DNA of 64,000 nucleotides. Source: Sphingopyxis panaciterrulae (GTDB lineage: Bacteria > Pseudomonadota > Alphaproteobacteria > Sphingomonadales > Sphingomonadaceae). Both the position numbers and the translations under genes were made by a program. Positions 18,156-31,112 of this stretch are shown piece by piece. The stretch lies in assembly GCF_014199295.1 (NCBI RefSeq), contig NZ_JACIJH010000003.1:124001-188000 (forward strand), written 5' to 3'. The first letter of the stretch is position 1; each line of letters starts with the position of its first letter. The notes under the pieces are model-generated. The model did no database searches and had not been told where the DNA came from. It was given only the letters and a program-made list of their open reading frames with translations.

Positions 18156-18911
18156 CTAATAGCGGCCCGAGAGCAGGGCGCCGGCGCCGGGAACCCCGGT
18201 CGGCAAGCCGAGGCGCGTCAGCATCTGGTGCGCGGTGCAGATCGCGGCCGATACGACCGGCAGGCCGATCGCATCCTCGATCTTTTGCACCGACGGCAGC
18301 GAGGGCATCTGGACGCAGGCCGACAGGACGAGCGCGTCGATGCCGGTGAGGTCGAGGCGCTTGTAATGGTCGAGCAGATGGATCGGATCCTGCGCCGCGA
18401 CTTCCAGATTGTCGGGGATTTCGAGCGCGAGCCAGTCGGCGACCGCGACGCCCTCCTCCTCGATATAGGAGACGACCATCTGCGTGAGCGGCTTCATATA
18501 GGGCGCGACGAGCGCGATGCGCTTCGCCTCCAGCGCCTTCAGCCCCTCGATCAGCGCCCCCGCGCTCGTCACGACGGGCGCAGCGTGGCCGTTCTCCACC
18601 GTGCACTGGTGGAGCCGCGCCTCGGACACACGGTGATAGCCCTGCCCCATGCTCATGATCGCGACGAGGCAGGCATAGCCGAGGACGTCGACCGCGGCGT
18701 CGGACAATTCGAGCGCGCAGCGGTCCGAGTCCGCGTCCATCGCGGCGAGTTCTTCCTTGGTCACCTTCCTCATCCGCATCCGCGACGAGTGGAAAGTGAA
18801 GCGCTCGGGCGCGATGGCCTCGCGGGCGCGGAGCAGCGCCGGAATCTCGGTCTCCATCGTGACGTTGGAGCTGGGCACGATCTGCCCGATGCGGATGGGT
18901 CGTGCCGTCAT
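18156..18911 (-). CDS. Maleate cis-trans isomerase (Asp/Glu racemase superfamily)
   Basis: A 251-residue enzyme predicted to convert maleate to fumarate. The two catalytic cysteines of the maleate isomerase/arylmalonate decarboxylase family are visible in LGYACLVAIMSMG and LSACVQMPS, and the N-terminal IVPSSNVTMETE motif is typical. ATG 18911 lies 8 bp after the upstream stop; longer frames lack support. As last gene of the operon it would finish breakdown of a maleyl intermediate, feeding fumarate to the TCA cycle. Arylmalonate decarboxylase or another racemase activity is possible but less likely beside a ring-cleavage dioxygenase and an FAH hydrolase. Known NicE in nicotinate degradation plays the same role. 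Confidence 0.83.
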   Translation of the reverse strand: MTARPIRIGQIVPSSNVTMETEIPALLRAREAIAPERFTFHSSRMRMRKVTKEELAAMDADSDRCALELSDAAVDVLGYACLVAIMSMGQGYHRVSEARLHQCTVENGHAAPVVTSAGALIEGLKALEAKRIALVAPYMKPLTQMVVSYIEEEGVAVADWLALEIPDNLEVAAQDPIHLLDHYKRLDLTGIDALVLSACVQMPSLPSVQKIEDAIGLPVVSAAICTAHQMLTRLGLPTGVPGAGALLSGRY

Positions 18912-18919
18912 GGCGCGCC

Positions 18920-19828
18920 TCAGACCGCGACGACCGGGTTGCGCAGCATGCCGATCTTCTCGATCTCGCATTCGACGACGTCGCCCGGCCACAGAAACTC
19001 CTGCGGATCGCGCCCGGCACCGACGCCCGCCGGCGTGCCGGTCGCGATGATGTCGCCGGGTTCGAGGGTCATCACGCTCGATATGTCGGCGACAAGCTGC
19101 GCCACGTTGAACAGCATGAAACGTGTGTTGCCGTTCTGCTTCTCCACTCCGTTGATGCGCGTCTTGAGGCTCAGGTCCTGCGGGTCACCAATTTCATCGG
19201 ACGTGACGATGCACGGCCCCATCGGCGCGAAGCTGTCCTGTCCCTTCGACACGATCCACTGCCCGGCGCGGCGGCAATCGCGCGCCGAGACGTCGTTGAT
19301 CACCGTATAGCCGAAGACATGATCGAGCGCGTCGGCCTCGGCGACGCGGCGCGCGGTGCGGCCGATGACGACCGCGAGCTCGGTTTCCCAGTCGAGCTGC
19401 TGCGTCACCGCCCCATTGTGGCGGATCGGGTCGTCCCACGCGGCGACCGCGGTCGGCGGCTTGGAGAAGATCACCGGCTGCTGCGGCAGATCCTTCGACG
19501 TGTCGAGACTGCGTGCCGATTCCGCGACATGCTCGGTATAGTTGAGGCCGATGCCGAAGATATTCTTGCGCGGCCGCGGGATCGGCGCGAGCAGCGCGAC
19601 ATTGGCTTGCGGCAGCGAGGTGCCGACGAAATCGGCGGTCGAGGCGTTGGTCACCGCCTCTTGCAGGAAGCGCGGCGCGATCGGCCCGAGGTCGATGAAA
19701 TCGAGCATCGTCGAGGGCAGATCCTGCCCGATCGCGGCACCGAAATATTCGACGTCGACCACGAGCCCGTCGTGGAGAAGGCCGAGCCGCGGTTCGGTCA
19801 GGGCCGTGCGATAAGTCACGAAACGCAT
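18920..19828 (-). CDS. Fumarylacetoacetate hydrolase family protein, probable maleylpyruvate hydrolase
   Basis: A 302-residue C-C bond hydrolase. The C-terminal FAH fold (from about residue 90) has NYTEHV, the metal-binding DWETELAVVIG and NDVSARD, and ATGTPAGVG. Between a gentisate-dioxygenase-like enzyme and a maleate isomerase, the natural substrate is maleylpyruvate or its amide, cleaved to maleate (or maleamate) and pyruvate. This is the glutathione-independent branch of gentisate breakdown; no maleylpyruvate isomerase is present. The gap to the upstream gene is 24 bp. Confidence 0.82.
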   Translation of the reverse strand: MRFVTYRTALTEPRLGLLHDGLVVDVEYFGAAIGQDLPSTMLDFIDLGPIAPRFLQEAVTNASTADFVGTSLPQANVALLAPIPRPRKNIFGIGLNYTEHVAESARSLDTSKDLPQQPVIFSKPPTAVAAWDDPIRHNGAVTQQLDWETELAVVIGRTARRVAEADALDHVFGYTVINDVSARDCRRAGQWIVSKGQDSFAPMGPCIVTSDEIGDPQDLSLKTRINGVEKQNGNTRFMLFNVAQLVADISSVMTLEPGDIIATGTPAGVGAGRDPQEFLWPGDVVECEIEKIGMLRNPVVAV

Positions 19829-19852
19829 GGATTTAATCCTGTCTGTTTGCAG

Positions 19853-20986
19853 TCAGGCGGGCTGGTGGCCGCCATGGTCGGAATAGGGTTCCTCGATCCG
19901 GACGCCGAGCGCCTCCATCACGGGGAAATCGTTGAACGAGAAGAGGAAAGCCTCTTCGTTGAGGTCGAGATTGACATGCTCGTGCCACGTCCACGCGGGG
20001 ACGCAGAAGATGTCGTGCGTCTGCCAGTCGAAACGCTTTCCGCCGATGATCGAATAGCCGCGCCCGCCCGCGACATTATAGACGACATTGCCGGTGTGCC
20101 GGTGCGCCTGCCCGCGAAAGCCGCCGGGCAGCATCTGCATATGCGCGCCCATCGTCTGCAGCGCCCAGCCGCCGGTCAGCGGGTTCGCATAGCGCATCAT
20201 ATGCCCGTCGAAGGGCGTCCCGCCCGAAACCTTGGCGAGGTTCCAGAGCGCGTCGCGCACCGCATCCCAGCGATAGACCATCACCGGCGAATAGGGCTTG
20301 TCCCATGCCCCGACACCCTCGGGCCGCAAACCCGCGCCGCCATAGCTCAGCGGCAGGTCGTTCGAGGGGAAGGCGGCAGTCTGCGCGGGCTGCTCGTACA
20401 CCGCGTAGAAATTGGTTTCGAGGCAGTTCATCAGCGGGATGTCGAGCCCGTCCTGCCAGATCGACACCTCGCCATCGGCCGTGACGCCATGGTCGTGCCA
20501 GCAGCCGTTCGGGGTCAGCACATAATCATTGGCGCCCAGCGTGATAGGATGCCCGTCGACGACGGTATAGGCGCCTTTCCCTTCCATGATGAAGCGGTGC
20601 GCCGAGGCGGTGTGCTTGTGCGCGGGGGTAATCTCGCCGGGGCGCATCGCCTGCATGCCGCTGAACAGCCAGCCGCAGACCGCGACATTCGCGCGCCCCG
20701 CGTCGCTGTCGTTGAGCAGGGTGACGACGCGGCGCCCCGCTTCCTCGGGCTTCACCAGGTCGATCGCGCGCAGGCACATCGCGCGCATATCGGCATAGCG
20801 CCACAGCGTCGGGCGATAGCGCGTCTCGGGCTCCCACGGCTCGATCGCATTGGCGCGCTTCCAGAAGGCGCCAGCGTTGCGCCGCGCGAGGTCGTCGTAG
20901 AACGCCTCGAGTTCGGGCGTGTCGGTGACGCGCGACCGGCCGAGAACGGCGTCGCGCGGGTCGATGGTGGCGGGATGGTCGGTCAT
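19853..20986 (-). CDS. Gentisate 1,2-dioxygenase-like cupin, proposed 5-hydroxyanthranilate dioxygenase
   Basis: A 377-residue bicupin ring-cleavage dioxygenase. The first cupin has the iron ligands in PAHKHTASAHRF and CWHDHG. The second cupin has QAHRHTGNVVYNV and PAWTWHEH. WQDGLDIPLMN matches the family's QDGLDIPL region. Homologues open gentisate between the carboxyl- and hydroxyl-bearing carbons. Here the gene is co-transcribed with kynureninase, whose product is an anthranilate, so a 2-amino analogue of gentisate is a plausible substrate; opening it would give an amide. Salicylate or 1-hydroxy-2-naphthoate dioxygenase activity also occurs in this family. The start overlaps the upstream stop (ATGA). 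Confidence 0.82.
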   Translation of the reverse strand: MTDHPATIDPRDAVLGRSRVTDTPELEAFYDDLARRNAGAFWKRANAIEPWEPETRYRPTLWRYADMRAMCLRAIDLVKPEEAGRRVVTLLNDSDAGRANVAVCGWLFSGMQAMRPGEITPAHKHTASAHRFIMEGKGAYTVVDGHPITLGANDYVLTPNGCWHDHGVTADGEVSIWQDGLDIPLMNCLETNFYAVYEQPAQTAAFPSNDLPLSYGGAGLRPEGVGAWDKPYSPVMVYRWDAVRDALWNLAKVSGGTPFDGHMMRYANPLTGGWALQTMGAHMQMLPGGFRGQAHRHTGNVVYNVAGGRGYSIIGGKRFDWQTHDIFCVPAWTWHEHVNLDLNEEAFLFSFNDFPVMEALGVRIEEPYSDHGGHQPA

Positions 20987-22002
20987 GACGCCTTCTCCTC
21001 GCTGGGATCGTCCGCGGGCGGGACCTCGTCCACGAACAGGGCCGACGCGCGGGGAGTCCGGTCGACCGTCAGGTTGAAGATGTCGAAGCGGTTATAGCCG
21101 CCGACGATGTCGTGCATCAGCTTGGGGCGCACGCAGTCGCCGAGGTCGATCTCGGCATAGACGATGCCCTCGTCGTCGATCAGCGCGTCGCCGATCAGGT
21201 TGCCGTGCGGGTCGATGACGCCCGAAAAGGCGCTGTTCGGGCGCGACAGCAATTCGCGGTTCGCCGGTCGGTCGGCGCTCATCGCCACGATGATCTCCTC
21301 GCTCACCGTCGAGCAGGCGACGATGGTGAAGACCTTGCCCTCGAAGCTATGCGCGGTGGCGCGGATCTTGATCGCCTCGGCCATATTGTACGACGCGGGC
21401 GCGACGAGCAGCGCGATATAATTGGCGACGTGGACGAGTTCGCCCTGCGACAGCAGCGCGAAGCGCGCGAGGGTGTTGGTATTCTCCCCGCACGCGAGCG
21501 TGCCGAGCGACCCCACGGGCGTGTCATAGACACGGATCGAGGCGCCGTCGCCGCCCGCCCATGTGAGCTTCTCGGCCCAGGTCGGGACGAGCTTGCGGTG
21601 GCGCCCGAGCAGGCTGCCGTCGGCACCGATGATGAGGTTCGTGTTGTAGATGGTGCCGACGCTGACCGGATCGCGCTCGTTGATCCCGATCACCACCGTG
21701 CAGTCATGATCGCGCGCGGCGGCGCACAGCGCCGCGACCTCGGGCCCCTCGGCGAGGATCGAGGCGCGATAGAGGCGTTCGTGCCATTCGGCCCCCTCGA
21801 TCGGAGTCATCAGCCAGTTCCAATAGGGATAGGCGGCGATGAATACCTCGGGAAAGGCGACGAGCTTCGCGCCGTTTCCCGCCGCCTCGGCGATCAGCGC
21901 GCACGACTTGTCGACCGTCGCGGCGGGATCGAGGAAGACCGGCGCGGCCTGCACCGCGGCCACCTTCGACTTGGGCAGGAAGGGCATCGACACCTCGCTC
22001 AT
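20983..22002 (-). CDS. Nitrilase-superfamily carbon-nitrogen hydrolase, proposed ring-cleavage-product amidase
   Basis: A 339-residue enzyme with the Glu-Lys-Cys triad visible in VAFPEVFI, GRHRKLVPTW and TLACGENTN. Annotation as a nitrilase is usual for this branch, but members hydrolyse nitriles or amides. No nitrile source is evident in this operon, whereas opening of an aminated ring by the next enzyme would yield a primary amide, which this enzyme could hydrolyse with ammonia release. ATG 22002 overlaps the kynU stop by 4 bp; the frame extends to 22041 but that start would break the ATGA coupling seen at the neighbouring junctions. Substrate is inferred from context only. Confidence 0.8.
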   Translation of the reverse strand: MSEVSMPFLPKSKVAAVQAAPVFLDPAATVDKSCALIAEAAGNGAKLVAFPEVFIAAYPYWNWLMTPIEGAEWHERLYRASILAEGPEVAALCAAARDHDCTVVIGINERDPVSVGTIYNTNLIIGADGSLLGRHRKLVPTWAEKLTWAGGDGASIRVYDTPVGSLGTLACGENTNTLARFALLSQGELVHVANYIALLVAPASYNMAEAIKIRATAHSFEGKVFTIVACSTVSEEIIVAMSADRPANRELLSRPNSAFSGVIDPHGNLIGDALIDDEGIVYAEIDLGDCVRPKLMHDIVGGYNRFDIFNLTVDRTPRASALFVDEVPPADDPSEEKAS

Positions 22003-23240
22003 GTCACCGCCGCCCGCTCTTGATATTCGGGCTTGGCCCACGCCTCGGTCGCGCAGACCCTTTCGAGCCGCTCGACCGTCTCGACGATGTCGCGGTAGCG
22101 GAGATAAAGCGGCGTCAGCCCGAAGCGCAGCACGTCGGGGGTGCGGAAGTCGGCGATGACGTCCAGTTCCTTGAGCGCCTGGACGATCTCATACCCCCGG
22201 GGATGGGCATAGGCGACCTGGCTGCCCCGGCGCGCCGGGTCGCGCTCGCTGGCCAGCGCGAAGCCGTAGCGGGCGCAAAGGGGCTCCATCCGCTCCATGA
22301 ACAGGTCGCCGAGTGCCAACGATTTGCGGCGCAATTCGCCCATGTCGGCCTCGAGCAGCAGGTCGACGCCCGCCTCGAGCGCCGCGAGCCCGAGCACCGG
22401 CGGCGTGCCACAGAGGAAACGCTCGATCCCCGGCGCCGGATCATAATCTTCCTCGAACGAAAAGGGCCGCGCGTGGCCGAACCAGCCCGAGAGCACCGGC
22501 GTCGCCGCCTGATGCCGCGCCGCGGCGAACAGATAGGCGGGCGCACCGGGGCCGCCGTTGAGGAATTTATAGCCGCAGCCGATCGCGAAATCGGCGTTGG
22601 CGCCGCCCAAATCGACGGGGATGGCCCCGGCGCTATGGCTCAAATCCCAGATGACAAGCGCGCCCGCGTCATGCGCCTTGCGCGTGACCTGTGCCATGTC
22701 GCGGACGCGGCCCGACTTATAGTGGACCTGGGTGAGGAGCAGCACCGCGACCTCATCGTCGAGCGCGTCCAGAACCGCATCGGGGTCGGCCGTCACCGCC
22801 CTCACCCGCCCGCCCGAAAAGGCCTCGATCCCCTGCATCATATAGACGTCGGTCGGGAAGTTCGTCGCCTCGGAGAGCAGCTTCGCCCGCCCCGGCCGCA
22901 GCGACAGCGCGGCGGTCAGCGCCTTGAAGATATTTACTGACGTGGAGTCGGTCGCGATGATTTCGCCGGACGCCGCGCCGAGCAGCCGCGCGATCTTGTC
23001 GCCGATCCGGCGCGGCGCGGTCGACCATAAGGCGCCGAGCCATGAGGTGATCAACCCTTCGCCCCACTCCTGAGCGATCACGCGCGCCAGCCGGTCGGCG
23101 GTCGCCTTCGGCAGCGCGCCGAGCGAATTGCCGTCGAGATAGATGAGGCCATCGCGGAGCTGGAAGCGATCGCGGAAACCCGCGAGCGGATCGGCCGCGT
23201 CGCGTTCCGCGGCATCGGCGGCGAGGAGCGTCCCGGTCAT
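21999..23240 (-). CDS. kynU: Kynureninase
   Basis: A 413-residue PLP enzyme that splits kynurenine (or a ring-hydroxylated kynurenine) into an anthranilate and alanine. Visible features are YLDGNSLG near residues 34-41, TNFPTDVY, WDLSHSAGA with the PLP-contacting Asp, and the PLP lysine in GCGYKFLNGGPGAPAY. Length matches the family. It lies between kynB and the amidase gene with ATGA overlaps on both sides, so its anthranilate product is probably handled by the downstream enzymes. Confidence 0.93.
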   Translation of the reverse strand: MTGTLLAADAAERDAADPLAGFRDRFQLRDGLIYLDGNSLGALPKATADRLARVIAQEWGEGLITSWLGALWSTAPRRIGDKIARLLGAASGEIIATDSTSVNIFKALTAALSLRPGRAKLLSEATNFPTDVYMMQGIEAFSGGRVRAVTADPDAVLDALDDEVAVLLLTQVHYKSGRVRDMAQVTRKAHDAGALVIWDLSHSAGAIPVDLGGANADFAIGCGYKFLNGGPGAPAYLFAAARHQAATPVLSGWFGHARPFSFEEDYDPAPGIERFLCGTPPVLGLAALEAGVDLLLEADMGELRRKSLALGDLFMERMEPLCARYGFALASERDPARRGSQVAYAHPRGYEIVQALKELDVIADFRTPDVLRFGLTPLYLRYRDIVETVERLERVCATEAWAKPEYQERAAVT

Positions 23241-23866
23241 GGCAGATCCCTCAAGATCGCGCGCACCGGGCTCGCGTCGGCGCCGACGATGCGCAGCGGC
23301 AGCGCGACGAGTTCGTACCGGCCCGGCGGCACGTCATCGAGGACGAGCCCCTCCAATATCCGCATGTCGGCGGCCTTGACGGCGTGGTGCGCGTCGAGCG
23401 TCTTCGACTGTTCGGGGTCGAGCGAGGCGGCGTCGGTGCCGATCAGGCGGACCCCCGTCGCGCCGAGCCGCGCGATCACCTCGCTCGCGATCGCGGTGAA
23501 ATCGCTATCCCAGCTTTCGTGCGGGAAATTCTCATACGTGCGCAGCAACACCCGCTCGGCGCCCGCGACCGCGTCCCAGTCGATATCGTCCACCTCCACC
23601 CGGCCGCGCGCATGGCGGACGTCGAGCAGCACGCACGGCCCGATATAGGGTTCGAGGTCGCACTCGGCCGACGACGCGCCGTCATTGGCATAGTGCAGCG
23701 GCGCATCGCCGTGCGTGCCCGCGTGGAGCGGCGTGACCATCGCCCCGACATTGACCGGGCAGCCCTCGCCGATCACCGCATGGCGGTGGAGCGCGAAGGG
23801 CGGCTCGCCCGGCCATACGGGCACCGCGGCGTGGAGCGGCTGCGAAATGTCCCACATCCGGCTCAT
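23237..23866 (-). CDS. kynB: Kynurenine formamidase (cyclase family)
   Basis: A 209-residue metal-dependent hydrolase that removes formate from N-formylkynurenine. The family motif HAGTHGDAPLHY is present near residues 50-61, with WDISQPLHAAVPVWPGE at the N-terminus. Length matches bacterial KynB. It overlaps kynA upstream and kynU downstream by ATGA. Confidence 0.93.
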   Translation of the reverse strand: MSRMWDISQPLHAAVPVWPGEPPFALHRHAVIGEGCPVNVGAMVTPLHAGTHGDAPLHYANDGASSAECDLEPYIGPCVLLDVRHARGRVEVDDIDWDAVAGAERVLLRTYENFPHESWDSDFTAIASEVIARLGATGVRLIGTDAASLDPEQSKTLDAHHAVKAADMRILEGLVLDDVPPGRYELVALPLRIVGADASPVRAILRDLP

Positions 23867-24783
23867 GCGCCCGTCCCTTGAGCATAATCCCCACCCCCAT
23901 AATCACCCCCTTGGCGCGGCGCGACCATCTCGGTGCGCATCGACCAGAGCTCGGGGAAGAAGCTGAGGTTCAGCGCCTTGACCAGATAATTGACCCCCGA
24001 CGAGCCCCCGGTTCCCGGCTTGTGGCCGATGACGCGCGCGACGGTCTTCATGTGCTTGAAGCGCCATTCCTGAAAATAATATTCGAGCGCGGTGATCTTC
24101 TCGGCGAGCGTGTAGAGATCCCAGTGGCGCTCGACGTCGGTGTAGATGGCGAGCCACGCCTTCTCGACCGCCTCCGACGGCTCATAGGGCTGGGTCCAGT
24201 CGCGCTCCAGCCGGTCGGCCGGAATGTCGAACCCGCGCCGCGCGAGCAGCTTCAGCAGTTCGTCATAGAGCGACGGCGCTTCGAAAGCCGCGCGCAGCCG
24301 CGCCATCGCCGCCGCATCGTCCTTGTGGACAACCATCATGTCCGCGCGCTTGTTGCCGAGCAGATATTCGAGCTCGCGATACTGCTGCGACTGAAAGCCC
24401 GAGGCGCGGCGCAAAAACCCGCGAAAGGTCAGGAAATCATGCGGGGTCAGCGTCGCGAGCACTTCCCAGCTATGAATCATGTGGCGCTGGATCGTCGCGA
24501 TGCGGTCGAGCCCCTTGCCCGCAAGCTCCAGCCGGTCGGCGCGGATCGCCTCGACCACCAGCCGCACCTCGTGGAGCACCAGCTTGATCCACAGTTCCAT
24601 CGTCTGGTGCATGATGATGAACAGCATCTCGTCGGGCTTGTCCGACACCGGCACCTGCGCCGACAGAAGCTGCTGCGTCTGGATATGGCGCGCATAGGTC
24701 AGGCCATTGTCCCACTGGATCGTCTCGCCGTCGATCTCGGTCTCGAAGATGTCGGTGCCCCCGTCCTTCGTCTGCCTGATCAT
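23863..24783 (-). CDS. kynA: Tryptophan 2,3-dioxygenase, divergent pocket
   Basis: A 306-residue haem dioxygenase that opens the indole ring. Family motifs are clear: MLFIIMHQTMELWIKL with the distal His59, SGFQSQQYRELEYLLGNK, EWRFKHMKTVARVIG with the haem-ligand His, and GTGGSSGVNYL. The N-terminal motif that is usually Y-G-x-Y-L in this family, where the second Tyr lines the indole pocket, reads Y-A-R-H-I here (residues 30-34). With the unusual hydroxylase upstream this suggests a modified substrate such as 5-hydroxytryptophan. Activity on tryptophan itself remains possible. Confidence 0.93.
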   Translation of the reverse strand: MIRQTKDGGTDIFETEIDGETIQWDNGLTYARHIQTQQLLSAQVPVSDKPDEMLFIIMHQTMELWIKLVLHEVRLVVEAIRADRLELAGKGLDRIATIQRHMIHSWEVLATLTPHDFLTFRGFLRRASGFQSQQYRELEYLLGNKRADMMVVHKDDAAAMARLRAAFEAPSLYDELLKLLARRGFDIPADRLERDWTQPYEPSEAVEKAWLAIYTDVERHWDLYTLAEKITALEYYFQEWRFKHMKTVARVIGHKPGTGGSSGVNYLVKALNLSFFPELWSMRTEMVAPRQGGDYGGGDYAQGTGA

Positions 24784-25748
24784 CGCCGCGTCTCCCCGTT
24801 CATGAAGGCCGGTCCCGGCCGGACCGGTTGCAGCGGACCATCATAGGCGCGGTCGCCGGGAAAGGCATCTTCGGGTTCGAGCGCAGCTTCGCTCGCAATC
24901 TTCCTGTAAACGCTGGCAAAGTCCGTTTCCTCGGTCGCGCGCAGCAATTCCTCGAAACCCTCGACCACGAAATAGATGCGCTGGAATTCGTCGAAATGAT
25001 ATTTGGTCCGCATCACCCGCTCGATATCGAGCCAGATGCGCCGCGGTTCGGGCGAGGTGAGCGCCGCAATCGTCTCGGCATGGCTCGACAGCAGCCCGCC
25101 GCCGAAGGCGCGCAATTCACCCTTCTCGACGACAAGCCCGAACTCGGTCGTATAAAGCCAGAGCCGGCCGAGGAAATCGGACGCGCCCAGCCTTTCGGCG
25201 CGCAGCCCTGCCTGACCATATGCGACCAGAAAATCGGAAAAAGCGGGGCTTGCGAGCATCGGGACATGGCCGAAGATGTCGTGAAACATGTCCGGCTCTT
25301 CGCTGTAGCCGATCTGTTCGGGCGGCCGCAGGAAATTGGCGGCGGGAAAGCGGCGGTTCGCCAGATGCTCGAAGAAGGGTTCATTCGGTATCCAGCCCGG
25401 AACCGCGACGATCTCCCAGCCGGTCGCCGGCTTCAAATGCCTGTTGAGCGCGGCAAAATCAGGAACGCCCGGCGCGACCGACCGCAGCATATCGAGGCCG
25501 CGCAGAAAATCCGCGCAGGCATAGCCGCGCAGCGCCGCCAACTGCTGATCGAACAGCGCGCGCCAGGTCGAATGTTGCGCGGGCGTGAATGCCCGCCAGT
25601 CCTGGGACATCGTCCAGTCCGCCGCCGCCCCTTCGGGCGGCGCGTCGAAGATATGCGTCGCAGCCACTTCGGCTCTCTCTCCCGGCCTGCCGGAAAGATA
25701 GGTTTGTTTGGAACGAACATTGTCCGCAATTTTTCGACGATGATGCAC
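24780..25748 (-). CDS. Aromatic amino acid hydroxylase, proposed tryptophan 5-hydroxylase
   Basis: A 322-residue non-haem iron, pterin-dependent hydroxylase of the bacterial PhhA family. The iron triad is His156, His161 (FHDIFGHVP) and Glu202 (TTEFG). Standard annotation would be phenylalanine 4-hydroxylase. However, the two positions that distinguish phenylalanine from tryptophan hydroxylases are exchanged: Trp119 in VAVPGWIP, where PAH has Leu, and Leu198 in RLWLYTTEF, where PAH has Trp. Tryptophan hydroxylases have Tyr and Phe there. With kynA, kynB and kynU downstream, 5-hydroxylation of tryptophan is the likely role. The GTG at 25748 is the frame limit and only GGGA lies near it, so the true start could be slightly downstream. 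No pterin dehydratase gene is nearby. Confidence 0.85.
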   Translation of the reverse strand: MHHRRKIADNVRSKQTYLSGRPGERAEVAATHIFDAPPEGAAADWTMSQDWRAFTPAQHSTWRALFDQQLAALRGYACADFLRGLDMLRSVAPGVPDFAALNRHLKPATGWEIVAVPGWIPNEPFFEHLANRRFPAANFLRPPEQIGYSEEPDMFHDIFGHVPMLASPAFSDFLVAYGQAGLRAERLGASDFLGRLWLYTTEFGLVVEKGELRAFGGGLLSSHAETIAALTSPEPRRIWLDIERVMRTKYHFDEFQRIYFVVEGFEELLRATEETDFASVYRKIASEAALEPEDAFPGDRAYDGPLQPVRPGPAFMNGETRR

Positions 25749-25901: not shown

Positions 25902-26375
25902 ATGGACAGACTCGACTGGAAAATCATCGCCGCGCTCGAAGAAGACGGACGCCGCTCCTTCGCCGAACTGGGCGAGACGGTCGGCCTTTCCAAATCGCCC
26001 TGCTGGTCGCGGGTCCGCAGCCTCGAAGGATCGGGCGTCATTCACGGCTATGCCGCGCGCCTCGACCCCTTCGCCCTCGGCCTCGCGGTGCAGAGCTTCG
26101 TCGAGGTGCGGATCGGCCTCGATGCCCATGCCGATTTCGAAGCCGCGGTGATGGCGCACCCCGCCGTCGTCGAATGCCACACGACCGCGGGCGACAGCGA
26201 CTATATGCTCAAGATATTCGCGCGGTCGGTCGATCATCTCGACGAACTGCTCCGCCACGACCTTTCCAAGCTGCCGAGCGTGCATCGGCTATCCACCGTT
26301 GTCTGCCTGAAAACGATCAAGCGGCAAGGCCGCATCGCCGAATGGGCACGGATGACCGAACAGCAGCAGCGCTGA
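25902..26375 (+). CDS. Lrp/AsnC family transcriptional regulator
   Basis: A 157-residue regulator. The N-terminal helix-turn-helix (DRLDWKIIAALEEDGRRS, SFAELGETVGLSKSPCWSR) is followed by the RAM ligand-binding domain (VIHGYAARLDPFALGL, VVECHTTAGDSDYMLKI). ATG 25902 follows AGGAGG. Its divergent position makes it the probable regulator of the tryptophan operon, with tryptophan, 5-hydroxytryptophan or a downstream metabolite as likely effector. Confidence 0.92.
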   Translation: MDRLDWKIIAALEEDGRRSFAELGETVGLSKSPCWSRVRSLEGSGVIHGYAARLDPFALGLAVQSFVEVRIGLDAHADFEAAVMAHPAVVECHTTAGDSDYMLKIFARSVDHLDELLRHDLSKLPSVHRLSTVVCLKTIKRQGRIAEWARMTEQQQR

Positions 26376-26395: not shown

Positions 26396-29050
26396 CTATT
26401 CGGCCGGGATAGCCAATTCGCCCGGAAAAATCAGGGTAAATGCGGCCCCTCCCTCCGGATGGTTGGCCGCGGCGATCCCGATACCGAGCGCTTCGGCAAA
26501 ACCCCTCGCGATCGCCAGCCCCAGCCCGCTGCCGCCATGCCGGTCGCCGCCTCTGCCCTGGGCAAAGGTATCGAAGATCGTCCGCTCGGCGCCTGGCTCG
26601 ATCCCCTCGCCGCGATCGCGCACGGTCAATGTCACGCTGTCGGGCGTCCGCCGCCCGGCGATGGTGATCGGCCCCGCATTGCCGCCATGTTGAATGGCGT
26701 TGGCCAACAGGTTGAGCAGGATGTGATGCAGCAAGCGGGCATCGACGCGGACCAGCGGCAGGCCGGCGGGAACCTGAAAGTCGATGGGATGGCCGCGGAG
26801 CAGATCCTTGAGGTCATGGACGACACCCGCGACCACATCGGTCAGGTCCACCGGCTCGACGTCGAGGCGTATCCCCCCGGCATCGAGCCGGACCAGTTCG
26901 ACCAGATTGTCGAGGAAGCGGCGCAGCCGCGACACCTCTGCGCGCGCGACCGGCAGCGCGGCGGCATCGGGATGCTCCCCCGCCAGCGCCTCGATCGCGG
27001 CGGTGATGCCGGTGAGCGGAGTGCGCAGGTCGTGGCCGATCGACGAAAGCAGCGCGGCGCGCAGCCGATCGCGCTCTTCGAGCAGCGACAGGCCGCGCAT
27101 CTCGTCTTCCAGCCGCAGCCGTTCGTGCGCGTGCGCCGCCTGCCCCACCAATGTCGCCAGCAACGCAGCCTTGTCGGCCGAGACCGGGTCGCGATCGTCG
27201 TCGCGCGCGATGCCGAGCACCGCGAGCACGCCCAGCCCGGTCTTGAGCGGATGGAACTGCCAGTCCGACGCAAGCAAGGTGTTCGTGCCGCGTCCTGCGG
27301 GCTCTCCGCTGGTCCACGACCATTCGGCAGCCGCCTGATCGACCGGCGAGATCTGCGCGTCGGGCGGCCGCGCCACGACCGGTCGCAACATCCCCTCCCT
27401 TTCGATCATCACCACGGCACGGACGCCAAGCAGCCGCGAAACCTCCTCACAGGTGGCGGTGGCCGTGGCGTCGAGGTCGGCGGCGCGCGCCAGCGTCTGC
27501 GCGAAGGCGGCAAGCGCGGCGTTTTCCTGCGCGCTGCGCACGCCGATCTGCGCGCGGGTACGCAGGCGCCCCGCGAGATTGCTCGTCACGGCCGCGACGC
27601 CGGTCAGCACCAGCATCGTCAGCACGCTCTGCGGGTCGGTGATGGTGAAGCTGTGGATGGGTTCGAGGAAGAAGAAGTTGAACGCCAGCGCCGCGGCGAT
27701 GCTCGCGAACAGCCCCGGCCGGAGGCCGTACAGCGTCGCGGCGACGATGACGGGAACCAGATAGAGAAGGTCGATCGCGCCGCGTCCGATAACCGGCTCT
27801 GCAAGCTTTGCGAGCAGGGTCATCGCGGCGATCAGCAGCATCGCGGCGCCATAGGCCTGCGGCCGCCCCCAGCCCCGCGCCCACGCTCCCCGGCGCCCCT
27901 CGGCCGCTGCGAGTTCGGGCGACGGGATGACGTGGATCGCCAGGTCCTGCGAGCCGCGGATCAGGCTTTCGACGACCGACCCGTGGCGCAGTTCGAACCA
28001 CCAGCTCCGCTGCGACCGGCCGATGACGAGTTGCGTCGCGCGCTGCGCCTCGATCTGGCCTTTCAGCCCCACGATGACATTTTCGGCCGGAATGGTCGCG
28101 ATCGTCGCGCCAAGCGTCGCGGCGAGCCCCAGCGCGGCGGCGACGCGGCGCTGCGCCTCCTCGTCGAAGCCGCGACTGCGCGGGGTTTCGATATGCACCG
28201 CGGTCCACGGGGCATTGAGACCGTCGGCCAGCCGCTTGGCGGTGCGCGCCAGCGCATCCGCACCCGGCTGTTCGCTGATAGCGACCAGGATGCGCTCGCC
28301 CGCGGCATAGGTACCTGCAACGCCGCCCGCGTCGAGGTCCTGCAGCATCTGCCGATCGACGCTGAGCGCCGCGCGGCGCAGCGCCATCTCGCGCAGCGCC
28401 GACAGATTCGGCTTCGAAAAGAAGTGGCCCAGCGCACGGCTCGCCTCCTCTGGCACATAGACCTTGCCGTCCTTCAGCCGCTCGATCAGTTCGTCGGGCG
28501 GCAAGTCGACCAGCTTGATCTCGGCGCCCTCGAAGACGCCGTCGGGCACCGTTTCGCGCACGCGGACGCGCGTGAAGCTCGCGACGACGTCGTTGAGGCT
28601 CTCGACATGCTGGATGTTCAACGTCGTGTAGACGTCGATCCCCGCGTTCAGCAGCTCCTCGACATCCTGCCAGCGCTTGGGATGGCGGCTTCCCTCGACG
28701 TTGCTGTGCGCATATTCGTCGACCAGCGCGAGCGCCGGTGCCCGCCGCAGCACAGCATCGAGGTCCATCCCGGTCAGGCGGTGGCCGCGATATTCGACCT
28801 CGCGGCGCGGGAGCACCTCCATGCCCACGAGCAGCGCCTCGGTCTCGGCGCGGCCGTGGGTCTCGGCGACCGCGACGACGACATCCTCGCCCTCGCGCTT
28901 CAGCGCCGCGCCTTCGCCCAGCATAGCAAAGGTCTTGCCGACTCCGGGCGCGGCGCCGAGGAAGATCTTGAGTTGCCCGCGCTCCTCGCGCTTCGCCTGG
29001 CGCAGAAGCGCCTCTGGCGACGGTCGTTTTTCCGGCGGCGACGAGGTCAT
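26396..29050 (-). CDS. kdpD: Osmosensitive potassium sensor kinase KdpD
   Basis: An 884-residue sensor that phosphorylates KdpE when potassium is limiting. Domains in order: KdpD N-terminal domain with Walker A GAAPGVGKT (residues 32-40) and DEYAHSNVEGSRHPKRW; a UspA-like domain ending IGRSQRSWWFELRHGSVVESL; four membrane helices (about 395-495); a GAF-like segment; the phosphorylated His in SSIGHDLRTPLTG; and ATPase boxes (NLLANAIQHGG, RDRGEGI, GGSGLGLAIARG). ATG 29050 is preferred to 29092 because the conserved protein starts near KRPSPEALL. It is transcribed away from kdpFABC-kdpE, unlike the common kdpFABC-kdpDE order. Confidence 0.95.
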   Translation of the reverse strand: MTSSPPEKRPSPEALLRQAKREERGQLKIFLGAAPGVGKTFAMLGEGAALKREGEDVVVAVAETHGRAETEALLVGMEVLPRREVEYRGHRLTGMDLDAVLRRAPALALVDEYAHSNVEGSRHPKRWQDVEELLNAGIDVYTTLNIQHVESLNDVVASFTRVRVRETVPDGVFEGAEIKLVDLPPDELIERLKDGKVYVPEEASRALGHFFSKPNLSALREMALRRAALSVDRQMLQDLDAGGVAGTYAAGERILVAISEQPGADALARTAKRLADGLNAPWTAVHIETPRSRGFDEEAQRRVAAALGLAATLGATIATIPAENVIVGLKGQIEAQRATQLVIGRSQRSWWFELRHGSVVESLIRGSQDLAIHVIPSPELAAAEGRRGAWARGWGRPQAYGAAMLLIAAMTLLAKLAEPVIGRGAIDLLYLVPVIVAATLYGLRPGLFASIAAALAFNFFFLEPIHSFTITDPQSVLTMLVLTGVAAVTSNLAGRLRTRAQIGVRSAQENAALAAFAQTLARAADLDATATATCEEVSRLLGVRAVVMIEREGMLRPVVARPPDAQISPVDQAAAEWSWTSGEPAGRGTNTLLASDWQFHPLKTGLGVLAVLGIARDDDRDPVSADKAALLATLVGQAAHAHERLRLEDEMRGLSLLEERDRLRAALLSSIGHDLRTPLTGITAAIEALAGEHPDAAALPVARAEVSRLRRFLDNLVELVRLDAGGIRLDVEPVDLTDVVAGVVHDLKDLLRGHPIDFQVPAGLPLVRVDARLLHHILLNLLANAIQHGGNAGPITIAGRRTPDSVTLTVRDRGEGIEPGAERTIFDTFAQGRGGDRHGGSGLGLAIARGFAEALGIGIAAANHPEGGAAFTLIFPGELAIPAE

Positions 29051-29100
29051 GCCTCCATTTACGCCAGCCGCCGCGGCGCGGCCAAGCGGCAACGCGCAAT

Positions 29101-29408: not shown

Positions 29409-31112
29409 ATGACCGCATCCGGCTGGGCCCTCATCCTCCTCTTCATCGCCATCCTCGCGGCGCTCGCCAAGCCGATCGGGCTCTGGCTCTTCGCACTCTA
29501 CGAAGGCCGCCCCACCCCGCTCCATCGATTCCTCGGCCCCGTCGAGCGCGGCTTCTATCGCCTCGCGGGGATCGACCCGACCGAGGAGCAGGGCTGGCGG
29601 CGCTATGCGCTGCACATGCTGCTCTTCAACCTCGCGCTGCTGCTCTTCACCTATGCAGTGTTGCGGCTCCAGGGCGTGCTACCGGGAAATCCGCGAGGCT
29701 TCGATGCGATCGGGGCCGATGGCGCATTCAACGCCGCGATCAGCTTCACGACCAACACCAATTGGCAATGGTATGCCGGAGAGGCGACGATGTCGAACCT
29801 CAGCCAGATGCTGGGGCTCACGATCCATAATTTCCTGTCGGCGGCAACCGGCATCGCGGTCGCCTTCGCGCTGTTCCGAGGCTTCGCGCGCCGCGAGACG
29901 AACGCGCTGGGCAATTTCTGGGCCGATGTGACCCGCGTGACGCTCTATCTCCTGCTGCCGATCTGCATCGTTTATGCGCTCTTCCTGATCGCAAACGGCG
30001 TGCCGCAGACGCTCAGCAGTTCGGTCGATGCGACGACGCTCGAGGGGGCGAGGCAGACGATCGCGCTCGGCCCCGTCGCAAGCCAGGAAGCGATCAAGCT
30101 GCTCGGCACCAACGGGGGCGGCTTCTTCAACGCCAACAGCGCGCATCCGTTCGAAAATCCCACCGCGCTCACCAATTTCGTCGAGATGCTGTCGATCCTC
30201 GCGATCGGGGTCGGCCTGACCTGGTGCTTCGGCAAGGCGGTCGGCGACACGCGCCAGGGTTGGGCGATCCTGACCGCGATGGGCGTGCTCTTCCTCGCCG
30301 GCGCCGCCATCGCTTACTGGCAGGAAGCGGCCGGCAATCCGCTGCTCCATCAGCTCGGCGTCGCCGGCGGCAACATGGAGGGCAAGGAGGTGCGCTTCGG
30401 CATCGCCGCATCCGCGCTGTTCGCCGTCGTCACCACCGCCGCCTCGTGCGGCGCGGTCAACGCGATGCACGACAGCTTCACCGCGCTGGGGGGCCTAATT
30501 CCGCTCTTCAACATGCAGCTTGGCGAGGTCATCGTGGGCGGCGTCGGCGCGGGCATCTATGGCTTCCTGCTCTTCGCGATCCTCGCCGTGTTCGTCGCGG
30601 GGCTGATGGTCGGGCGCACCCCCGAATATGTCGGCAAGAAGATCGAGGCGCGCGAGGTCAAACTCGCGGTGCTCGCGATCGCGGTCCTGCCACTCGTCAT
30701 TCTGGGCTTCACCGCGCTCGCCAATGTGCTGCCCGCCGGCCTGGCCGGGCCGCTTAACAAGGGGCCGCACGGCTTCTCCGAAATCCTCTACGCCTTTACC
30801 TCGAGCGCGGGGAACAATGGCTCGGCCTTCGCCGGCCTCTCCGCGGGCACGCCCTTCTACAACCGCCTCACCGGCATCGCGATGTGGCTCGGGCGCTTCT
30901 TCGTGATCGTGCCCGTGCTCGCGATCGCGGGCAGCCTCGCCGCAAAGCGCCATACTCCAGCAACAAGCGGCTCCTTCCCCACCACCGGGGGGCTGTGGAT
31001 CGGGTTGCTCATCGGGATCATCCTGATCCTCGGCGGCCTCACCTTCCTCCCCAGCCTCGCTCTCGGCCCCGTCGCCGATCATCTCGCGATGATCGACGGC
31101 CGGCTCTTCTGA
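29409..31112 (+). CDS. kdpA: Potassium-transporting ATPase subunit KdpA
   Basis: A 567-residue inner-membrane subunit that selects and binds K+. Its four filter-loop regions are recognisable: [45 protein letters not shown] and [13 protein letters not shown]. Length and helix pattern match the family. It is co-transcribed with kdpF, kdpB, kdpC and kdpE. Confidence 0.97.

Follow-up and report, generated by a model that had tools for sequence, protein, structure and literature searches.

The window analysed here is a stretch of 64,000 nucleotides from contig NZ_JACIJH010000003.1 of Sphingopyxis panaciterrulae. On its minus strand, eight co-directional open reading frames (ORFs) running from 25748 to 18156 encode enzymes of 209 to 413 residues and form an operon that is proposed to degrade tryptophan. 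Families were assigned by Pfam and NCBIfam matches. In operon order, followed by the regulator, the features are:

24780..25748, minus strand: Biopterin_H/PAH; pterin-dependent aromatic amino-acid hydroxylase, paralogue within the PAH family (TIGR01267), predicted L-tryptophan (or L-kynurenine) 5-hydroxylase; true start uncertain
23863..24783, minus strand: Trp_dioxygenase; tryptophan 2,3-dioxygenase family (TDO), below the TIGR03036 cut-off and with residue changes, predicted 5-hydroxytryptophan 2,3-dioxygenase
23237..23866, minus strand: arylformamidase KynB, cyclase family (TIGR03035, 246.6 bits, cut-off 223.05)
21999..23240, minus strand: kynureninase KynU (TIGR01814, 284.5 bits, cut-off 246.4)
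20983..22002, minus strand: CN_hydrolase; nitrilase-superfamily hydrolase (Nit), predicted amidase of maleamoylpyruvate or maleamate
19853..20986, minus strand: gentisate-dioxygenase-like bicupin, a ring-cleaving dioxygenase (Cup; closest solved chain 3bu7), predicted 5-hydroxyanthranilate 1,2-dioxygenase
18920..19828, minus strand: FAA_hydrolase family (FAH; PF01557, 245.5 bits), predicted maleylpyruvate/maleamoylpyruvate hydrolase
18156..18911, minus strand: Amdase; maleate cis-trans isomerase family (Iso; 4fq7 match)
about 25902-26375, plus strand: divergent Lrp/AsnC regulator (PF01037/PF13404; NF008370 below cut-off), probably of the operon

The first-pass annotation had described eight same-strand genes joined by five ATGA overlaps, and all of these were found again, the overlaps at 24780, 23863, 23237, 21999 and 20983; the regulator is an addition to it. 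The two other junctions are short gaps of 24 nt (Cup/FAH) and 8 nt (FAH/Iso). Given the ATGA at the Nit junction, the Nit start was placed at ATG 22002 and not at the longest-ORF start, 22041. For Iso, ATG 18911 is the most likely start.

The distribution of the operon was examined by cupin searches. Among 296 genomes of the order, 31 had a match at E 1e-60, six of them at ≥70% identity: the window genome, three congeners, a genome in which the operon runs to the contig end (G093) and another that has just Nit-Cup-FAH-Iso (G003). Among 398 genomes of the phylum, 12 had a match at E 1e-90. Two of these, the window genome and another, had been matched already, and the other ten were 53-61% identical. 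A collection of named genomes, searched with alignment A1, gave 37 loci from Sphingopyxis, Sphingomonas, Novosphingobium, Aurantiacibacter, Erythrobacter, Kordiimonadaceae, six gammaproteobacteria and one Sphingobacterium record. Setting aside the gammaproteobacteria, L105 (which has only the lower module) and L110 (the contig of which begins just before Cup) left 29 alphaproteobacterial loci. All eight families were present in 25 of these; PAH, TDO, KynB, KynU, Nit and Cup were found in 29, FAH in 28, Iso in 25 and Lrp in 28, with L104 truncated by a contig end. The gene grouping exceeds chance, because the set recurs in these 29 loci, mostly in the same order. PAH lies on the opposite strand beside Lrp in L091-L093, and in L094 both genes sit a few kilobases downstream; the association thus outlives operon order. 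The first-pass annotation had proposed synteny beyond the source genome as a check, and the synteny did not dissolve there: it spans genera and families, and a reduced form occurs in another class and another phylum. The record carrying the lower module in L105 is labelled Sphingobacterium cellulitidis.

The operon probably degrades L-tryptophan through 5-hydroxyanthranilate, by what is probably a new pathway in which every substrate is inferred. The pterin-dependent hydroxylase would convert L-tryptophan to 5-hydroxytryptophan (5-HTP), the indole ring of which would be opened by TDO to give N-formyl-5-hydroxykynurenine. KynB would take off formate, and KynU would split the resulting 5-hydroxykynurenine into alanine and 5-hydroxyanthranilate. 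The bicupin would then cleave 5-hydroxyanthranilate between C1 and C2 to maleamoylpyruvate; with this cleavage, the amino-bearing carbon ends as a carboxamide. Release of ammonia by Nit and of pyruvate by FAH, in either order, would yield maleate, which Iso would convert to fumarate.

The hydroxylase was compared with canonical PAHs. It scored 281.7 bits against TIGR01267 (cut-off 264.75). The window genome holds two Biopterin_H genes, the second lying on another contig and having canonical residues. Among 28 carrier genomes drawn from the 37 loci, 22 contained Biopterin_H genes (two in 20, three in one, one in one); the remaining six, all gammaproteobacterial carriers, gave no Biopterin_H match, and several of these are metagenome-assembled genomes or small partial genomes. 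The 31 operon PAH rows (30 distinct, L038 and L104 being the same contig) formed their own clade against the canonical PAHs, with FastTree support of 1.0. The two-His one-Glu iron site (CvPAH H138, H143, E184) was kept in 31/31 operon rows. Arg123 and the SSxxE motif, which we take to be the amino-acid contacts, were also retained. The position of CvPAH W180 is Leu in every operon row and Trp in 22/22 canonical rows, and that of L101 is Trp (22), Val (7) or Phe (2) in the operon rows and Leu in all 22 canonical ones. Trp at 180 would mark a bacterial phenylalanine 4-hydroxylase and Phe a tryptophan 5-hydroxylase (TPH), Phe being given as the TPH-type residue in the part of PMC11885754 drawn on here; the operon copies have Leu. 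W180 and L101 are also described as sites engineered for higher tryptophan hydroxylation (PMC4029321). As judged from these residues, the pocket is neither PAH-like nor TPH-like. In 23 of 31 operon rows, position 179 is occupied by Trp, which may compensate for Leu180. PCD, for pterin recycling, was present in 25/25 genomes tested, and in G682 and G685 no more than about 1 kb separates its gene from the operon-type PAH. These comparisons support a dedicated paralogue with a putatively remodelled pocket.

Alternatively, the hydroxylase could act on L-kynurenine, after TDO and KynB, to give 5-hydroxykynurenine, as a pterin-dependent equivalent of kynurenine monooxygenase (KMO), and the lower pathway would be the same. 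C5 of kynurenine is para to the amine, as C5 of tryptophan is para to the indole nitrogen, and the presumed amino-acid contacts, Arg123 and SSxxE, are kept. Moreover, in the excerpted results of PMC11885754, XcPAH W179L (like the Ile and Met variants) gave no 5-HTP in whole cells and the Phe and Tyr variants did; the operon enzyme carries Leu at the equivalent position. On the other hand, the TDO indole pocket appears remodelled, also in gammaproteobacterial genomes without a PAH match; if kynurenine were hydroxylated, TDO would be an ordinary tryptophan enzyme. We therefore regard hydroxylation of kynurenine as unlikely, and prefer tryptophan as the substrate of the hydroxylase.

The window genome has a single TDO. 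It scored 358.9 bits against TIGR03036, under the cut-off of 390.7; this miss is weak, because only 31 of the 80 order genomes having a match pass the cut-off. In all 35 operon TDO rows (30 alphaproteobacterial and five gammaproteobacterial, 34 distinct), Y27 of XcTDO is replaced by His, S58 by Met and G121 by Arg, and His55, Arg117, His240 and Thr254 (XcTDO numbers) are intact. The comparison set was 64 other TDOs of the order, consisting of the 30 best-scoring, a biased choice, and 34 lower-scoring ones added later; it excludes weak-scoring fragments, a single partial gene and the copies from the operon. Position 27 in these is Tyr in 60, a gap in one and His in three (L234, L238, L239), all three from the lower-scoring half. 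The operon and gammaproteobacterial TDOs as a clade by themselves had to be given up once the 34 were added; instead, the 38 His27 TDOs formed one clade with support of 1.0. For MarE, the indole pocket is described as lined by residue 27 from the adjacent subunit (PMC11904535), and from matching residue numbers and motif this residue presumably corresponds to position 27 of the operon TDOs. Because the gammaproteobacterial TDOs, from genomes without a PAH match, also have His27, TDO more likely meets an already hydroxylated substrate. The second TDOs of the gammaproteobacteria were tried as a canonical contrast and set aside: the three inspected have Tyr27 but Gly for His55, and Phe113.

For KynU, the residues around the pyridoxal 5′-phosphate (PLP) site are as in P. 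fluorescens KynU. KynU was rejected as a specificity marker, since it showed no distinct clade and unaltered PLP-site residues. No 3-HAO match was obtained in 18 of 25 genomes tested, the window genome included.

The closest solved chain to the cupin is 3bu7 (523.7 bits), which is named gentisate 1,2-dioxygenase. The score against the gentisate dioxygenase equivalog TIGR02272 was 289.4 bits, under the cut-off of 442.1. The iron-binding His residues, Arg83, Gln108, Arg127, His162, Trp172 and Asp174 (SDO numbering) are kept in the 31 operon and six gammaproteobacterial cupins, the sole exception being one Cys for Trp172; their roles in gentisate contact, including binding of the 5-OH by Asp174, are taken from portions of PMC11264262 and PMC10306065. 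Leu38, which the same portion of PMC11264262 gives as invariant among gentisate dioxygenases, is replaced by Phe in 37/37 cupins of the operon and gammaproteobacterial loci; it is Leu in 19 of 20 related cupins from non-tryptophan loci (one gap) and in 16 of 17 ordinary ones. The residue beside Arg127 is His in 30/31 alphaproteobacterial cupins, Gln in 6/6 gammaproteobacterial ones and Leu or Ile in 20/20 related non-tryptophan ones. The 3bu7 protein is itself the module cupin of Ruegeria pomeroyi (100% over 368 residues); its gene, at L209:8995-10119 (NC_006569.1), lies within a Nit-Cup-FAH-Iso module adjoining IorAB, which calls gentisate as its natural substrate into question.

In Nit, the Glu and Lys motifs are present in 42/42 near orthologues and the Cys motif CGENTN in 41, the last having an X. 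Solved relatives of FAH include the maleylpyruvate hydrolase 6jvv (122 bits). Iso is closest to the maleate cis-trans isomerase 4fq7 (346 bits, E 9.9e-103, residues 16-278) and keeps both Cys contexts, YACLVAIMSMG and SACVQMPSL, which are presumably catalytic.

The related cupin clade comprises 20 non-tryptophan loci, some with IorAB and a thioesterase. Orthologous Nit and Iso occur together in five of them, Nit alone in one and Iso alone in none (Fisher p=0.0004, phylogeny uncorrected). Orthologous Nit in six of these 20 against 0/9 ordinary gentisate-dioxygenase loci gave p=0.14, which is not significant. A count of any CN_hydrolase beside the related cupins (14/20 against 0/9, Fisher p=0.0007) was withdrawn, as 8 of the 14 are distant CWENYMP nitrilases. 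These CWENYMP proteins, at L039-L043, L070, L071 and L178, are perhaps true nitrilases acting on an indole nitrile.

These data also bear on the possibility that the cupin is a true gentisate dioxygenase, with 5-hydroxyanthranilate first deaminated to gentisate and Nit doing something else. The name of 3bu7 and the retention of most gentisate contacts favour it, and such a route, anthranilate to 5-hydroxyanthranilate to gentisate, was proposed for Nocardia (Nocardia opaca, Cain 1968, as told in a section of the review PMC4539516). However, no deaminase is among the family matches of the operon, Nit and Iso co-occur in the related loci as counted above, and Leu38 is replaced by Phe throughout. 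We consider a gentisate route improbable, and direct cleavage of 5-hydroxyanthranilate is retained as the preferred reading.

All six gammaproteobacterial loci contain KynU, Nit, Cup and FAH, five contain TDO (L102 begins inside KynU) and three contain Iso; no PAH or KynB match was obtained in the six. A divergent sulfatase gene lies upstream of TDO in the five with upstream sequence, one copy being partial. Four loci have a symporter gene downstream: it follows directly in L099-L101 and lies about 6.5 kb off in L103; the contig of L107 stops before its position. L099/L100/L101 and L103/L107 are close relatives and thus represent about two lineages, the symporters of which are 34% identical. 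L099 and L100 also hold an alpha/beta hydrolase, which could replace KynB. In Embleya (Actinomycetota), the cluster at L213:2716-11863 contains TDO, an amidohydrolase, KynU, an AraC-like frame, Nit, Cup, FAH and Iso, and no recognised hydroxylase. Neither these symporters nor the sulfatase had a match in the 29 PAH-containing loci or in Embleya L213 (E 1e-8). From these few lineages, it is suggested that the PAH-less versions import a hydroxylated or sulfated substrate.

The lower module was also found beside other upper genes. Sixteen plasmid records had a cupin, eight of them Nit as well; the neighbourhoods of seven cupin matches and of three of 11 Nit matches were inspected. Nit, Cup, FAH and Iso occur together in Ruegeria, Sulfitobacter, Shinella (two replicons), Sagittula, Leisingera, Caballeronia and Embleya, and IorAB and a thioesterase adjoin the module in five inspected plasmid records, where MarR genes are found too. 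Nit homologues of 53-54% identity without a cupin were seen on a Polaromonas plasmid and in Salinigranum, a haloarchaeon (L215, L216). In related clusters, a protein named bifunctional salicylyl-CoA 5-hydroxylase/oxidoreductase (CoA, coenzyme A) scored 1298.8 bits (cut-off 1078). Its plan of a flavin adenine dinucleotide (FAD) monooxygenase and an old yellow enzyme is that of 2-aminobenzoyl-CoA monooxygenase/reductase; the database name would instead point to gentisate. A second cluster in Sphingomonas canadensis, at L223:1786-8441, reads TDO-KynB-KynU-Nit-Cup-FAH-Iso and has no PAH; a neurotransmitter-type symporter lies about 5 kb away. The L223 cupin shares 85% identity with its counterpart in L039, an indole-type cluster with IorAB, a thioesterase and a cyclase read as isatin hydrolase-like. 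An indole-type cupin thus stands in a tryptophan-type cluster, and the two cupin types look interchangeable. Together with the reuse of the module, this makes 5-hydroxyanthranilate the simplest shared node. At L176:7323-8141, a divergent gene of the TDO superfamily (31% to the operon TDO) faces Nit-Cup-FAH-Iso head-to-head, and an IclR regulator gene follows Iso; the TDO-like gene possibly encodes another heme oxygenase feeding the module.

A wider reading, which we put forward tentatively and at somewhat less than even chance, is that Nit-Cup-FAH-Iso is a shared, unrecognised 5-hydroxyanthranilate module of at least two phyla. Tryptophan would feed it through the new pterin hydroxylase, and gammaproteobacteria and some alphaproteobacteria would take up ready-made 5-HTP or its sulfate ester with a neurotransmitter-type symporter; compounds of the indole/isatin type would enter by way of 5-hydroxyanthraniloyl-CoA. 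The natural substrate of 3bu7 would then be 5-hydroxyanthranilate and not gentisate.

Several observations weigh against the proposed tryptophan pathway. Besides Leu at the XcPAH W179 position and the gentisate name of 3bu7, the proteins of known structure closest to Nit are nitrilases, which carry CWEH or CAEH where the operon enzyme has CGEN. The Embleya TDO retains Tyr27, the TDO change Y113F is not operon-specific, and an operon-specific KynU clade is lacking. Iso lies outside the retrieved stretch in L089, L095 and L098, and likewise in gammaproteobacterial L099-L101. Furthermore, three loci combine a His27 TDO and KynU but have none of the four lower-module genes within about 9 kb, and none of their genomes had an operon-type cupin in the order-wide cupin scan, which argues against strict coupling of the upper and lower parts. 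L260 (7193-11493) contains Lrp, PAH, TDO with His27, KynB and KynU, and its PAH has Leu180 and falls in the operon PAH clade (support 1.0). The alphaproteobacterial L261 (7204-12781) has a sulfatase, TDO with His27, KynU and a sodium:neurotransmitter symporter, repeating the gammaproteobacterial set, and L262 has TDO, KynB and KynU only. In two of these three extra cases, His27 thus accompanies the hydroxylase or import-type genes even without the lower module. The added TDO controls cut both ways and left the odds of the tryptophan pathway unchanged. The eight-step scheme of the first-pass annotation is partly supported: it is favoured by synteny, by the apparently remodelled hydroxylase and TDO pockets and by module reuse, and is weakened by XcPAH W179L, by the 3bu7 name and by the upper genes standing alone in three genomes.

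The separate occurrence of upper and lower parts would also suit an operon of unrelated functions, in which phenylalanine hydroxylation, ordinary conversion of kynurenine to anthranilate and a gentisate pathway of its own stand side by side; each enzyme family has ordinary members with such roles. Against this stand the canonical PAH elsewhere in the genome, the ATGA coupling, the conservation across genomes and the residue changes, so that we give this explanation very little credence compared with the tryptophan pathway.

The operon was further compared with known systems. It shares the order of TDO, formamidase and kynureninase with the kynurenine pathway (3-hydroxyanthranilate branch, KMO and HAAO), but a pterin enzyme would place the hydroxyl group at C5, in contrast to C3 for KMO, and the ring opener is a gentisate-type bicupin. 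With the gentisate pathway it has in common the cupin fold, the iron ligands, most substrate contacts and the FAH hydrolase; in contrast, the expected substrate has NH2 for OH and would give an amide, Nit and Iso are extra, and Leu38 is changed to Phe. The nicotinate/nicotine maleamate branch uses a maleamate amidase, of another family than Nit, and the maleate isomerase NicE; amide hydrolysis followed by maleate-to-fumarate conversion is likewise proposed for the operon, whereas its ring substrate is unrelated. The mab cluster of Comamonas QT12 (5-aminosalicylate 1,2-dioxygenase), as outlined in PMC9584955, also involves cupin cleavage of an amino-hydroxybenzoate. Its substrate is isomeric to 5-hydroxyanthranilate, so a deaminase and not an amidase is expected downstream, and the operon cupin scored 249.4 bits against NF049978, far under the cut-off of 650. 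The iad indole-3-acetate loci are listed with IorAB homologues (PMC9613470), and the plasmid modules adjoin IorAB, a thioesterase and MarR genes. As far as the published iad route is set out in the passages used, it ends at anthranilate (PMC9613470, PMC12633357), and the terms 'cupin' and 'fumarylacetoacetate' are absent from the main texts of both papers. A 2018 review noted, in the section used, that the genes of the anthranilate-gentisate branch in indole degraders were then unknown (PMC6221969). No description of the present route came up in the searches made, which were confined to the open-access literature.

If correct, the pathway adds an aerobic catabolic route for tryptophan and 5-HTP and supplies genes that cleave the ring of 5-hydroxyanthranilate directly, a compound reported as an intermediate in 1968. 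The hydroxylase would be a natural bacterial candidate for 5-HTP production, and the solved gentisate dioxygenase (3bu7) would have another physiological role.

A promoter and terminator scan gave no signal above chance. Beyond the regulator lie a KdpD-like gene (26396-29092, minus strand) and a KdpA-like gene (29409-31112, plus strand), both read from translations only.

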